64,000 bases of DNA from Fervidobacterium changbaicum (GTDB lineage Bacteria > Thermotogota > Thermotogae > Thermotogales > Fervidobacteriaceae), in contig NZ_CP026721.1 in NCBI RefSeq assembly GCF_004117075.1, positions 930,001 through 994,000 of the forward strand. The letters are read 5' to 3'. Below are positions 23,136 to 35,541 of the stretch, piece by piece. Made by a program: the position numbers and the translations under genes. Each line of letters begins with the position of its first letter. Position 1 is the stretch's first letter. The notes below the pieces were generated by a model. It was not told where the DNA came from. It saw only the letters and a list, made by a program, of their open reading frames with translations, and made no database searches.

Positions 23136-23210
23136 TGGCTGGGGCGGTAGGACTCGAACCTACACAACTGGAGCCAAAGTCCAGGGTCCTGCCAATTAGA
23201 CGACGCCCCA
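23136..23210 (-). tRNA. tRNA-Gln (anticodon TTG), CCA encoded
   Basis: A complete cloverleaf on the minus strand. The acceptor stem TGGGGCG pairs with CGCCCCA, the anticodon loop is CTTTGGC (anticodon TTG), the T-loop is GTTCGAGTC, and CCA follows discriminator G. It lies 34 bases downstream of tRNA-Val and before a terminator, so the two are probably one transcript. Confidence 0.95.
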
Positions 23211-23244: not shown

Positions 23245-23319
23245 TGGTGGGTGCGGCAGGGATTGAACCTACGACCTCTTCCGCGTCAAGGAAGCGCTCT
23301 CCCACTGAGCTACGCACCC
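23245..23319 (-). tRNA. tRNA-Val (anticodon GAC), CCA encoded
   Basis: A complete cloverleaf on the minus strand. The acceptor GGGTGCG pairs with CGCACCC, the D-arm is GCTCAGTGGGAGAGC, the anticodon loop is TTGACGC (anticodon GAC), and the T-loop is GTTCAATCC; CCA is encoded after discriminator A. A promoter overlaps the end of ldh just upstream. Confidence 0.95.
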
Positions 23320-26624: not shown

Positions 26625-26638
26625 TTTCGTGCTGGACG

Positions 26639-26727
26639 GAGGCGTGTCCGAACTGGCTAAGGAGCCGGTCTTGAAAATCGGTGGTGGTCAAACCACCGTG
26701 TGGGTTCGAGTCCCACCGCCTCCGCCA
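26639..26727 (+). tRNA. tRNA-Ser (anticodon TGA), CCA encoded
   Basis: An 89-base class II tRNA. The acceptor GGAGGCG pairs with CGCCTCC, the anticodon loop is CTTGAAA (anticodon TGA), a long variable arm (GGTGGTGGTCAAACCACC) follows, and the T-loop is GTTCGAGTC. Discriminator G and CCA are encoded. It converges with the MFS gene, whose stop is 11 bases away on the other strand. Confidence 0.95.
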
Positions 26728-30820: not shown

Positions 30821-33496
30821 TCATGTCTTTTGGTTTTCTGAAATTTCCGCCTGCTCAAGGTTTTTCAGGAACTGTTCAGCGATTTTTTCAACGGTTTGAA
30901 TCTCATCAAGTTTTGGATTGTCCAATTTCATTGCGTACAGTCTTTCCAAAATCTCGTTTATAACAGGTCCGGATTTGAGACTAAATCTTTCAATAACGTA
31001 TTTACCAGAGACTTTCTCAAGTTTTGTGTTAAGAATAGCGTCTATGTAAGTTATTAGGTATTCTTGGTCATCCTCTTCAAGGTATGCCGAGAGATGGATA
31101 AAGATGTACGGATTGCCTTTGCCAATCACTTTGTAGATATCTGAAAAATTCAATCGCGTTTCGATCATCGACTTTAAAGGCATCATCATATTCTCAGTGA
31201 ATTTCAAACTTTCAATGAACTTCTTTGGATAACCGTAGCGGTTTCTCATGTCATCCAGAGTCTCTTTGTCGTAGAACTCCAGAAGAACCGTTGATATCGC
31301 GTAAAAATCACTGATGTTTTGGTACCTTTCTTTGACACTTGGCAAAAACTTAAAGACTCGTTCCAGTTTTTCATCCATAGTAGGTGTGTAGTATGTTTTT
31401 GGAAAGATGTGTTTTAAAATCCCAAGTTCTGCTAAACGTCTGATTGCTTTCATCGGCTCTCTTTCTTCCAATATCTTTTCTATCTCCTGCCTTATCCTCG
31501 ATCCTGAAACCCTTTCTAAATATTTGCCCTCCAGATTCTTTTTCAAAATGTCCAATGTATGTTCTTCTATTCTGAAGTTGTACCTTGTTTCAAACCTGAC
31601 AGCCCTAATCATGCGAGTAGGGTCTTCTATGAAACTCAAGTTGTGAAGTATCCTTATGATACCTTCTTGAAGGTCTCTTTGGCAGTTAAAGAAGTCATAG
31701 AGCACTCCAAACTCGTTGGGATTCAACTTTATTGCCATTGCGTTTATTGTGAAATCCCTTCGGTACAGGTCTTTCTTTATCGTGCTCACGTCAACTTGTG
31801 GAAGTTCTCCTGGCTTTTCATAGTATTCCGTTCGCGCTGTTGCAATATCTATTTTGAAACCATCTTTAAATACCAACGTTGCAGTATAAAATTTCTCGTA
31901 AGGGACAACAATCGCATCGAGCTGTTTGCCCACGTACTTTGCAAACTCAATCCCATTCCCCTCTACGACTATATCTATATCGTAATTAGGTATATTTAAT
32001 AATAAGTCCCTGACAAATCCACCCACTACATAGACTGGCATCTTCAATTCATGTCCATAAATACCAATGAGTCTCAACAAGTTGACAATTCTCTTGTCGA
32101 GCCTTTCGTATATAATATCAGTTACATTCTTGAAATTAAAGCTAACTTCGCTTTCCTGAGGTGTTTGAACCGGTTGCTTTTGACTTGCCCTGATGATATC
32201 TGACCTTGTAACGATTCCAACAAGTATATTGTTTTCATCCAAGATAGGTATTCTCCCGACGTCGTGCTCGATCATCAGCTTTTTGAGAGTACTTACAGGT
32301 GTGTCTGTCTTTGCCGTTATAAGCTTCGATGTCATTACCGATTTAACGGGTCTTTTGCCTAAACCGTGGTTAATAGCCTTTTCTATCGTCTTTTTAGTAA
32401 CAATCCCAACAAGCTTATTACCTTCAACAATTGGTATACCGTTGTGCCCGGTTATTTCCATTGTTTTGTTAACCTCTTCTATTGTTTCCGATGCCAACGC
32501 CGTTCTAACAGGTGAAGACATGATGTCTTTAGCCTTGAGGCCTGATGAAATGTATTTTGGAAGTGTATTCAAAACCTTGTGTATGACCTCTTCGACAGCC
32601 ACCATCGAGAGCGTCGCAGAAGCTGCCTGCCTATGTCCTCCACCTCCAAATTCACTCATCAAGCCTCTTATGTCCACATCGGGAGACTTCGTCCTTCCCA
32701 CGATAAAGACTTTCTTTCCCATTCTCACCACTGCGATCAGCGTCTCCGGTTCTTGAGCATACCAGTATTTTGCAACGACCGCAGAAAGCCCACCTACGAA
32801 TTTTTCGGTTTCCGCATGCGTTATCGTAATGATATGATTGTCTATGGTGTAAGTTTGCGTGTTCTGTAGTAAATTTTGGAGTAGTAATTTCTGGTCTATC
32901 GTCAGATCAAATTTCACGTATTCGGCTACTATTTCTACCTCTAAACCGCTTTCAAATAGATATCTAACTGCATCGATATCATCCAACGTTGTGCTTGAGA
33001 AGAGCAGATTACCAGTGTCTTCGTATATGGCAATCCCAAGCAAGGTAGCTTCTATTCTATTTGGTTTAACCCCGTGTTCCCTCAACATTTTCGTTACGAT
33101 GCTTGCGGCAGCTCCTGTTTGTCGAAAGATTTTAGTGATACCATATCCGAGCGTACTTGTGCTATTTTCTGAACTATCAGAACCTCTTATATCGGGGTGA
33201 TGGTCAATTATCGTTATCTTGGCATCAGGTCTTAGTTTCTTCTTTATCTCATCACCGATTCTCTCCAAGCCTGGCGTATCGACGATTATCAGTTCCTCTA
33301 TACCCTCTTCCACCTTCGCAATCTGATCACTTGTTAAATAGGGAAATTCGTCCTCGTAAAGTCGTAGGTATTCTTTAAGGTTCTGCATGGGAACCCCAGA
33401 GATAACGATTTCAAAGTCCGGATGGAGTTTTTTCATACCTACACAAGAAGCAAACCCATCAAAATCTGGATTGTTGTGAGTGGTTATAACCTTCAA
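30821..33496 (-). CDS. cca: tRNA CCA/A-adding nucleotidyltransferase fused to DHH and CBS domains
   Basis: An 891-residue multidomain protein. Residues 1-300 are a DHH/DHHA1 phosphoesterase: NNPDFDGFAS (8-17), DHHP (98-101) and GGGGHRQAAS (284-293). Residues 323-440 hold two CBS domains (KDIMSSPV and KSVMTSKL start them). From about 488 a class II nucleotidyltransferase head follows: VVGGFVRD (490-497), DID (506-508) and RRDFTINAMA, then the RNA-binding helical body. The same fusion is known in Thermotoga. It adds or repairs the 3' CCA end; the DHH part may be a nuclease or cyclic-nucleotide phosphodiesterase. Its stop overlaps nothing, but its start overlaps the upstream phosphoesterase stop by 4 bases. 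Confidence 0.9.
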   Translation of the reverse strand: MKVITTHNNPDFDGFASCVGMKKLHPDFEIVISGVPMQNLKEYLRLYEDEFPYLTSDQIAKVEEGIEELIIVDTPGLERIGDEIKKKLRPDAKITIIDHHPDIRGSDSSENSTSTLGYGITKIFRQTGAAASIVTKMLREHGVKPNRIEATLLGIAIYEDTGNLLFSSTTLDDIDAVRYLFESGLEVEIVAEYVKFDLTIDQKLLLQNLLQNTQTYTIDNHIITITHAETEKFVGGLSAVVAKYWYAQEPETLIAVVRMGKKVFIVGRTKSPDVDIRGLMSEFGGGGHRQAASATLSMVAVEEVIHKVLNTLPKYISSGLKAKDIMSSPVRTALASETIEEVNKTMEITGHNGIPIVEGNKLVGIVTKKTIEKAINHGLGKRPVKSVMTSKLITAKTDTPVSTLKKLMIEHDVGRIPILDENNILVGIVTRSDIIRASQKQPVQTPQESEVSFNFKNVTDIIYERLDKRIVNLLRLIGIYGHELKMPVYVVGGFVRDLLLNIPNYDIDIVVEGNGIEFAKYVGKQLDAIVVPYEKFYTATLVFKDGFKIDIATARTEYYEKPGELPQVDVSTIKKDLYRRDFTINAMAIKLNPNEFGVLYDFFNCQRDLQEGIIRILHNLSFIEDPTRMIRAVRFETRYNFRIEEHTLDILKKNLEGKYLERVSGSRIRQEIEKILEEREPMKAIRRLAELGILKHIFPKTYYTPTMDEKLERVFKFLPSVKERYQNISDFYAISTVLLEFYDKETLDDMRNRYGYPKKFIESLKFTENMMMPLKSMIETRLNFSDIYKVIGKGNPYIFIHLSAYLEEDDQEYLITYIDAILNTKLEKVSGKYVIERFSLKSGPVINEILERLYAMKLDNPKLDEIQTVEKIAEQFLKNLEQAEISENQKT

Positions 33497-34680
33497 ACAA
33501 TCACTTCCCTCTTTCTTAACTTGTTGACAGAACCTGTGACAATTTCAATTTCACCTGAGGCATCAACACGAGCAATAGCGTAGAATATTTCAAAGAATCT
33601 TTGGAAAATATTCTTTGACTTTCTTTCGACAACGGGCTTCCAAGAACCACAGTTCACGTAAAACTTCACATCGTCTTTTATTTTAATCAAGTCAAAACCA
33701 GGTTTGTGGTTATGTCCCATCACAATACCTTGTATGTCTTCAAAAGGCTTGCTAAGAAAAGTTTCGTTTAAATACCCATCCATATTCTTGAAAAACCACT
33801 CCGGATCTTTGAATATCTTAATCGCAGCCTTTTTCAAATAATCCGTTTTCCTAACATTTCGTGCTTTCATAACCCCGCGTACCAATAACTCACCAAGTTT
33901 TATTCCGCCAATTTTGTTCAAAAATAGTATCGACAAGTTACTCATCAACGGGTACCTTTTTTTCATCCAGTACTTAGCCTCATCTTCGCGCATCATGGTT
34001 ATGAAGTTGTCTATCCACAACTTCAGTAAATCGACGCTCGTTTCATACAATTTCGAAATCTGTTCAAGCCATTGGAAAACATCGAGTGAAGGTCTGACGT
34101 TATCGTAGTCGCTCACTACTTCTTCTGGCAAATATTCTCTCAACACGTCGTCGAAGTTTATCATCATGTACCTTGAGATAAAATCACCAAGTGGAGGGAT
34201 TATCTCACCGTTGACTTCGGTAAACTTGTTGATAGCATCGAACTGATTTCCATGTACCGCTAGGATCTGTGTTTGCTCATCGTAGTAGTACGGGACTATT
34301 TCGAGATTCCTTATCTTTTCCTTTAGCCTTTCTTGCAGCGTTTTATTTCCTAAAATATAGTAATCGTGGTTACCAACCACGTATGTAACTTTTCCTTTAA
34401 ATTTTGCCAGAGCATCAAATACTTTGGGATGAGCTTGCTCTATAGAATCTATAAGTTTTCCATCAAGTGAATGAACAATTTCCCAGAACGGTTTTAACCC
34501 AGCATGCCTAATGTATTCGGACTCGAGAATCTCAAACCCGTCACCTACAATAACAAGCTCTGGGTTTTCCAAACCGTTCCACTCATTTATGAAGTTAGTA
34601 AAAAGTTCGTCTTGTGTGAAATCATCTTTACCGTTTCCATCTCCGATGTGCAAATCACTGACGAATATTATATTCCTCAA
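33493..34680 (-). CDS. Calcineurin-like metallophosphoesterase
   Basis: A 395-residue cytoplasmic phosphoesterase. Metal motifs in order: SDLHIGD (residues 8-14), VGDGFEI, VGNHDYY, the VHGN segment and GHNHKP. The D-H, GD, GNHD, H and GHxH pattern is complete. A helical insertion in the middle makes it longer than most UDP-2,3-diacylglucosamine hydrolase relatives. The start is TTG 34680: an in-frame stop lies 4 codons upstream, and AAGGGGATG is about 11 bases ahead. It is coupled to the CCA-adding fusion by a 4-base overlap and follows rnz by 24 bases, so a role in RNA or nucleotide 3'-end processing is possible. Confidence 0.85.
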   Translation of the reverse strand: MRNIIFVSDLHIGDGNGKDDFTQDELFTNFINEWNGLENPELVIVGDGFEILESEYIRHAGLKPFWEIVHSLDGKLIDSIEQAHPKVFDALAKFKGKVTYVVGNHDYYILGNKTLQERLKEKIRNLEIVPYYYDEQTQILAVHGNQFDAINKFTEVNGEIIPPLGDFISRYMMINFDDVLREYLPEEVVSDYDNVRPSLDVFQWLEQISKLYETSVDLLKLWIDNFITMMREDEAKYWMKKRYPLMSNLSILFLNKIGGIKLGELLVRGVMKARNVRKTDYLKKAAIKIFKDPEWFFKNMDGYLNETFLSKPFEDIQGIVMGHNHKPGFDLIKIKDDVKFYVNCGSWKPVVERKSKNIFQRFFEIFYAIARVDASGEIEIVTGSVNKLRKREVIV

Positions 34681-34704
34681 ATCCCAACTTCATCCCCTTT
34701 TCTA

Positions 34705-35541
34705 TTAGAGTTCAAATATTCTCTCAGGATGGACGTACAATATCTTTGTTCCCGGGATCTGTATTTTCCTGATGACCTTCTCCATGCTTCTTATGTATCT
34801 GGAAGATATATGATAAAGGACGAGCGTTTGAACATTTGCCTCTTTCACAAGTTCTATTACTTCTTCGAGTGATGCGTGGTTGTTGAATTTTCTGTCCTCT
34901 TTCTTTAGAAAAGTGCACTCGTGAAAGAGGATTTCGGTGTCTTGTATGTCTTCTTTTTTCAACAAGATCGTGTCGCCCGAGATAGTCAGAACCTTTTTTT
35001 CGTACGTTTCCGTCACTTGCTCGCTTCCATAAGTCTTGACAAGCCTTGTTATTTCTTCTTTCGAAAGGTCCCTGTATTCTGCTTTCAACCTTTTGCGGAC
35101 CTCGACAAGGTGATAACCGAATGCCGCTTCGCTGTAAGTATGCAGAACACTAAATGGTTTTATATAACGATTCGTTGTTTCAGAATCTCTCAATGGAACC
35201 TTTTCACCTTCTTTGAGAGGCACAAACTGGAGTTTAAATCGTAGTTCGCTGTTTGCTCTCCTTAAGAAATCTGCGTACAGTTCTATGCCTTTGTTTCCCG
35301 AAGGATAATAAATGGTCAAAGGTTTTTCTCTATCGCCCATTGCATTGTTTCTTGTGTTGATTATCGACCATAGACCTGATATATGGTCAACATGACCATG
35401 CGTCAAAAAGATGTGCTTAACTGCGTATATTTTATTTGTTAACATCGTTGCTACGCCTTCACCTGCGTCAAATAGTATGCGCTCAGGTGAGTAGTAAATC
35501 CATGTGGAATAAAGTGCCTTGGAAAAAGCTACTATGTTCAT
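34705..35541 (-). CDS. rnz: Ribonuclease Z, short form
   Basis: A 278-residue metallo-beta-lactamase-fold endonuclease that matures tRNA 3' ends. THGHVDH at residues 47-53 is the metal motif; HTYSEAAFGY, ISGDT, FHEC and NNHAS follow with the expected ligands, and the C-terminal YHISSRY carries the last His. In Thermotoga maritima this enzyme is known to cleave mostly after the encoded CCA. All three tRNAs in this window encode CCA, which agrees. It lies upstream of a metallophosphoesterase and the CCA-adding fusion. Length matches the Thermotoga enzyme. Confidence 0.92.
   Translation of the reverse strand: MNIVAFSKALYSTWIYYSPERILFDAGEGVATMLTNKIYAVKHIFLTHGHVDHISGLWSIINTRNNAMGDREKPLTIYYPSGNKGIELYADFLRRANSELRFKLQFVPLKEGEKVPLRDSETTNRYIKPFSVLHTYSEAAFGYHLVEVRKRLKAEYRDLSKEEITRLVKTYGSEQVTETYEKKVLTISGDTILLKKEDIQDTEILFHECTFLKKEDRKFNNHASLEEVIELVKEANVQTLVLYHISSRYIRSMEKVIRKIQIPGTKILYVHPERIFEL

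Follow-up and report, generated by a model that had tools for sequence, protein, structure and literature searches.

A locus of three genes, rnz, a metallophosphoesterase (MPE) gene and cca, lies on the minus strand of a 64,000-nucleotide stretch of Fervidobacterium changbaicum DNA (contig NZ_CP026721.1, positions 930,001 to 994,000), the whole of which is called the window here. By the open reading frame list and the sequence, the gene order on that strand is rnz, MPE, cca. The first gene (34705-35541, ATG start at 35541) encodes a TM-type short tRNase Z of 278 aa, the second (33493-34680, TTG start at 34680) an LpxH-fold, calcineurin-fold metallophosphoesterase of 395 aa, and the third (30821-33496, TTG start at 33496) a DHH-DHHA1-CBS-CBS-class II tRNA nucleotidyltransferase fusion of 891 aa. 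The explanation that fits the locus best as a whole, held with moderate confidence, is that it belongs to a housekeeping block in which the MPE is unrelated to tRNA and acts on a small-molecule or lipid-headgroup substrate other than lipid A. The trio would then form the downstream end of a gene block that is co-translated and shared by a whole Thermotogota family. To judge from homology, the Thermotoga-type RNase Z would mature tRNA 3' ends by a single cut behind the encoded CCA, and CCA ends that become damaged would be restored by the DHH-CBS-nucleotidyltransferase fusion, in which the intact DHH-DHHA1 part is the likely in-cis nuclease or phosphoesterase partner for trimming or cleaning. 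The MPE, modeled as a two-metal LpxH-like core with a long helical cap, would hydrolyze a phosphoester or pyrophosphate; the favored substrates are small molecules of the lipid-headgroup or nucleotide-diphosphate kind. It would only be co-expressed with rnz and cca in this family, as the outcome of a single ancestral rearrangement together with a stop/start overlap that has been conserved. The rnz and cca products are known enzymes in expected roles, which makes the locus ordinary for two of its three genes. The MPE is a phylum-wide orphan enzyme of LpxH fold whose hosts lack lipid A, and identifying its substrate would close a gap in the metabolism of Thermotogota.

The distribution of the three genes was surveyed in 103 Thermotogota genomes, 20 of which belong to the window's family (Fervidobacterium/Thermosipho). 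The MPE is present in 96 of the 103, mostly as a single copy; RNase Z occurs in 100, and 102 have either the fusion or a match of the CCA/CBS kind. Linkage counts use the best match per genome only. The CCA table leaves out G022 and G033 (weak matches, that of G022 in the CBS region) as well as G054 and G055 (about 68 bits, another CCA type), and G087 has no CCA match; the RNase Z table leaves out G004, whose match is weak, and G062, whose match is divided between two contigs, and G001, G007, and G086 have no match. Conservation of the trio in Thermotogota, the check proposed in an initial annotation of the locus, holds throughout one family and fails elsewhere. In the window's family cca and rnz are each at most 1 kb from the MPE in 20/20 genomes, an adjacency in excess of chance, whereas the same arrangement was found in 0 of the 76 MPE-bearing genomes outside it, so that linkage is confined to 1 of 11 families. 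Where MPE and CCA genes share a contig outside the family (24 pairs), they are always at least 21 kb apart, and neither rnz nor cca occurs in 20 MPE neighborhoods fetched there. The argument rests on these 24 pairs and 20 loci; many genomes are fragmented, and pairs on different contigs cannot prove separation, which weakens the negative. A phylum-wide gene that is linked to rnz and cca in one family only speaks for the explanation given above and is weak evidence for an action on tRNA. The MPE neighbors outside the window's family differ by family. Read by eye, they are taken to be argS after the MPE in family f2, a substrate-binding protein and pyruvate phosphate dikinase genes in f10, phosphohexomutase and PAP2-like genes in f8, and a polA-like gene in f7.

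The history of the locus can be read in part from its wider surroundings. A longer collinear block ends with the trio in the window and in ten further family genomes, and the block genes upstream of the trio are, by eye, presumably glmM, a MIP18-like gene, prmC, and rplI. Since rnz adjoins the rplI cluster in three other families too (L096, L097, and L098; gene names by eye), the rplI-rnz pair looks older, and MPE-cca looks to have joined later in the window's family. The trio is consistent with a single ancestral rearrangement retained by descent, and because one such rearrangement explains the 20/20, the adjacency counts as one event. The stop of the MPE and the start of cca overlap by four bases, TTGA at 33493-33496 on the minus strand, and a Shine-Dalgarno-like GAGGGAAGTGAT for cca stands within the 3' end of the MPE coding sequence (33500-33511, minus strand). 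A four-base overlap (TTGA or GTGA) is found in 14/20 genomes of the family, and in the remaining 6/20 the homologous cca start is 5 to 64 bases past the MPE stop. The overlap and the TTG start of the MPE had both been reported in the initial annotation and are confirmed, and its three gene identities are borne out by Pfam, NCBIfam, and PDB matches.

The initial annotation had further suggested that the MPE could remove a 3'-phosphate or 2',3'-cyclic phosphate before CCA repair. In such healing of tRNA 3' ends it would take over from an HD domain. The adjacency in 20/20 genomes and the shared overlap in 14/20, both within one family, agree with such a role. The best argument for it is that no HD domain was detected in the fusion by Pfam scan, while PMC10673834 attributes 2',3'-cyclic phosphodiesterase/phosphatase activity to HD-domain CCA enzymes, such as those of E. 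coli and M. tuberculosis, so that an end-cleaning activity could be missing here. The HD domain would thus perform, in those enzymes, the chemistry that had been given to the MPE; it is covalently within the enzyme and unrelated to the calcineurin fold. The guessed vacancy therefore stands as far as the HD domain goes, but it is DHH, not the MPE, that is physically tied to the CCA enzyme, and DHH is by this covalent link the first candidate for end-cleaning.

Moreover, the presence of the MPE is independent of DHH and of the type of CCA enzyme. In family f8, the fusion match starts at residue 308-321, after the DHH region, in 10/10 genomes, and neither DHH nor DHHA1 was found by Pfam in the two f8 fusions examined; the MPE is kept in all ten of these genomes, which again speaks for a role apart from tRNA. 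In genus g32 (seven genomes) the match starts at residue 185 to 304, DHH is found in none of three fusions passed through Pfam and a weak DHHA1 remnant in one, and the MPE is present in 4/7. Two genomes of genus g36 (G054 and G055) retain the MPE with only a different CCA enzyme, the G055 copy (L186) having an HD domain by Pfam; one of the two assemblies reaches 80% completeness and the other carries 6% contamination. Conversely, G042, G043, and G045, given as 99% complete, have no MPE and retain rnz and a cca match. With 0/76 linkage outside the family, removal of a 3'- or 2',3'-cyclic phosphate by the MPE is not supported, and tRNA healing in place of an HD domain is considered unlikely. It is very unlikely, too, that the MPE of the Fervidobacterium/Thermosipho family became a free-standing phosphatase for healing tRNA 3' ends, replacing the HD domain of other CCA enzymes, and that its joint translation with the CCA enzyme couples cleaning to CCA repair. 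In G085, a member of the window's family, a frameshift near residue 230 breaks the MPE in two (L088, 8577-9753), for which a sequencing error is possible; cca and rnz are kept and the rnz-MPE-cca order is otherwise intact, which also counts against tRNA healing.

A separate role for the MPE agrees with its sequence and modeled fold. The window protein matches PF00149 (E 1.1e-6), as do 33/33 aligned members, and residues D9, H11, D47, N104, H105, H143, H323, and H325 are invariant in all of them. These residues can be assigned to the metal site through the calcineurin-like superfamily signature, as given in PMC3087551. The motif set D-Xn-GD-Xn-GNHD-Xn-H-Xn-GHxH is complete in 33/33, which places the MPE in the calcineurin-like metallophosphoesterase superfamily. 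The protein is acidic, with an isoelectric point of 5.65 compared to 8.84 for the rnz product of the window, which likewise favors a substrate other than tRNA. With the MPE sequence alone, a PDB search gave nothing useful, and the family profile turned up no more than weak matches to LpxH (best E 0.016). The AlphaFold model has a mean pLDDT (predicted local distance difference test) of 88.9; its first 24 Foldseek matches are all LpxH, and so are the top 23 rows of VIA-align (Z 16.1-17.5), the best superposition reaching Z 17.5 over 210 residues; identity to LpxH is about 15-19%. DNA polymerase B-subunits and PolD DP1 are the next folds (Z about 15 by VIA-align). An RNA-repair phosphatase is not among the fold matches listed, which excludes nothing. 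Between metal motifs 4 and 5, the model has an insertion of 136 residues (163-298; 33787-34194, minus strand) that is mostly helical, with a column conservation of 0.57 and invariant tryptophans W204, W222, and W238. The lid of LpxH is presumably at the same position as this aromatic-rich cap. Membrane segments are predicted in 26/37 scanned distant relatives, which fits a lipid-headgroup substrate, while only 1/33 Thermotogota members reaches the scan threshold for a hydrophobic stretch. The Chloroflexi and Omnitrophota relatives have no consistent, interpretable functional neighbor, and nothing recognized as describing the MPE was found in the open-access literature on the fusion and on Thermotoga metallophosphoesterase.

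Likeness to LpxH (UDP-2,3-diacylglucosamine hydrolase) raises the question of lipid A. Both proteins have the two-metal calcineurin core and an insertion between motifs 4 and 5, and 18/33 MPE members weakly match the NCBIfam LpxH model. The MPE differs in its longer cap, in its low identity, and in a host without the lipid A pathway. Its third block reads GNHD, with H105 in 33/33 members at the place of the arginine that, according to PMC3087551, LpxH has in this block (GNRD), and its score against the LpxH model is 17.8 bits, far below the cut-off of 134. Furthermore, LpxC was found in 0/103 Thermotogota genomes by a search that was positive in 4/14 controls, including E. coli. Since GNRD is absent and LpxC is missing from all 103 genomes, the MPE is not taken for a lipid A enzyme. 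An LpxH-type identity is rejected as extremely improbable, and a lipid A-type substrate, named in the initial annotation as one that would speak against tRNA healing, fails along with it, the LpxH-like fold notwithstanding. The nearest fold, taken together with the missing LpxC and the GNHD block, supports an LpxH-fold enzyme with a different substrate.

Other lipid roles have been considered. A specific role in the metabolism of membrane lipids or envelope precursors, such as hydrolysis of a lipid phosphate or a nucleotide-diphosphate-lipid, is a narrower form of the favored explanation and is possible though doubtful. The modeled LpxH-like core with its large aromatic-rich helical cap, the membrane segments of distant relatives, and the position beside what are taken by eye to be PAP2-like and phosphohexomutase genes in f8 all point toward it, whereas the near absence of hydrophobic stretches in Thermotogota members points away. 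The most obvious vacancy, that of a phosphatidylglycerophosphatase, is also occupied. Such a role was considered because PgpA is over cut-off in 0/103 genomes while pgsA is present in 100/103, and it was dropped because a PF09419-type phosphatase fills that vacancy in 97/103. Undecaprenyl-diphosphate phosphatase activity was set aside as well, UppP being present in 91/103 genomes and leaving no general vacancy. UppP/BacA is absent in 10/10 f8 genomes, where PAP2 proteins occur. PF09419 often gives two matches within one frame of about 355 aa, which suggests that many Thermotogota have a PGP-phosphatase-like protein in tandem or fused form.

Several observations weigh against an MPE that is merely co-expressed with the tRNA genes. 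The co-translation of MPE and cca has been kept over about 50% protein divergence inside the family, with the same overlap in 14/20 genomes, and this could reflect functional coupling. Outside the family, the MPE and cca are at a nearly constant 22 kb in six Thermotoga-like genomes and at 21 kb in G063; the two genes may once have been in one region, leaving a trace of older sharing. The f2 neighbor, if it is argS as it appears by eye, is another tRNA gene. Finally, PolD DP1, one of the next folds, is a nuclease, and the modeled fold would thus allow a nucleic acid substrate.

The assignment of rnz is straightforward. By far its best model is TIGR02650 (RNase_Z_T_toga; E 8.8e-114), with 379.4 bits against a curated cut-off of 507.05, which is an annotation threshold and not a biological feature. 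The protein aligns end to end with T. maritima tRNase Z (TM0864, PDB 1ww1/2e7y), residues 1-278 to 1-280 of 1ww1 at E 6.5e-112, and shares its start, the HGHVDH, HECT (at 207), and HIS (HISS at 244) motifs, and a KL-like arm, RLKAEYRDLSKEEITRL at 151; apart from the score under the TIGR02650 cut-off, no functional difference is seen. A motif scan of the protein did not find PxKxRN. In PMC3161902, TM-type enzymes are characterized by the lack of this CCA anti-determinant, by variant HEAT and HST motifs, and by a KL-type arm. On homology and motifs alike, the rnz product is a TM-type tRNase Z. That T. maritima RNase Z cuts just downstream of CCA, as the initial annotation had stated, is published for 45 tRNAs in PMC7479834, and by homology the Fervidobacterium enzyme would cut after the encoded CCA.

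The tRNA genes are in keeping with such a cut. The window has three, tRNA-Gln(ttg) at 23136-23210 and tRNA-Val(gac) at 23245-23319 on the minus strand and tRNA-Ser(tga) at 26638-26727 on the plus strand, and CCA is encoded in each. This had already been noted for the window and extends to the whole genome, where ARAGORN, run on short stretches around each of the 48 Rfam tRNA matches, puts an encoded CCA at the 3' end in 48/48, consistent with rnz cleavage after CCA. Because all 48 genes encode CCA, the CCA enzyme here is probably mainly a repair enzyme; the encoded CCA and the TM-type tRNase Z together support what had been proposed earlier.

The fusion comprises, by Pfam, DHH, DHHA1, two CBS, PolyA_pol, and PolyA_pol_RNAbd domains, all on the minus strand. 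DHH (residues 3-157; 33026-33490; PF01368, 1.1e-9) has intact HNNPDFD, VDTP, DHH, and EDTG motifs, and DHHA1 (residues 240-312; 32561-32779; PF02272, 1.1e-5) an intact GGGGH motif. The CBS pair covers about residues 322-436 (32189-32533; PF00571 in two stretches, range from the PDB 3kpc match), and the nucleotidyltransferase head, with VGGFVRD, DIDIV, and RRDF motifs, residues 488-615 (31652-32035; PF01743, 5.4e-28). With all domains found, the architecture is the already known DHH-CBS type of class II CCA-adding enzyme. It shares its catalytic core with its closest match, T. maritima TmCCA (PDB 3h37, E 5.7e-138 over residues 455-873), and its full-length architecture with the A-adding DHH-CBS family NF041569 (3.5e-186, covering 1-862); PDB 4wby belongs to this TmCCA/A-adding group as well. 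In contrast to that family, named for an A-adding enzyme, the fusion scores under the NF041569 cut-off and is the only nucleotidyltransferase match of its genome at E <= 1e-10. Since the match is single, the enzyme presumably adds the whole CCA and not A alone.

In several lineages the DHH part appears lost or eroded while the CBS pair and the nucleotidyltransferase stay in fusions of f8 (L179 and L180), g32 (L181-L185), and genus g27 (L188), the last with DHH detected and DHHA1 not. This repeated erosion with the CBS pair kept poses a modest evolutionary puzzle, relevant to the purpose of DHH. In six f8 genomes (G008, G012, G013, G015, G016, and G017), a second, shorter nucleotidyltransferase frame of about 335-379 aa stands beside the DHH-less fusion, and there a division of CC- and A-adding work between the two nucleotidyltransferases is possible.

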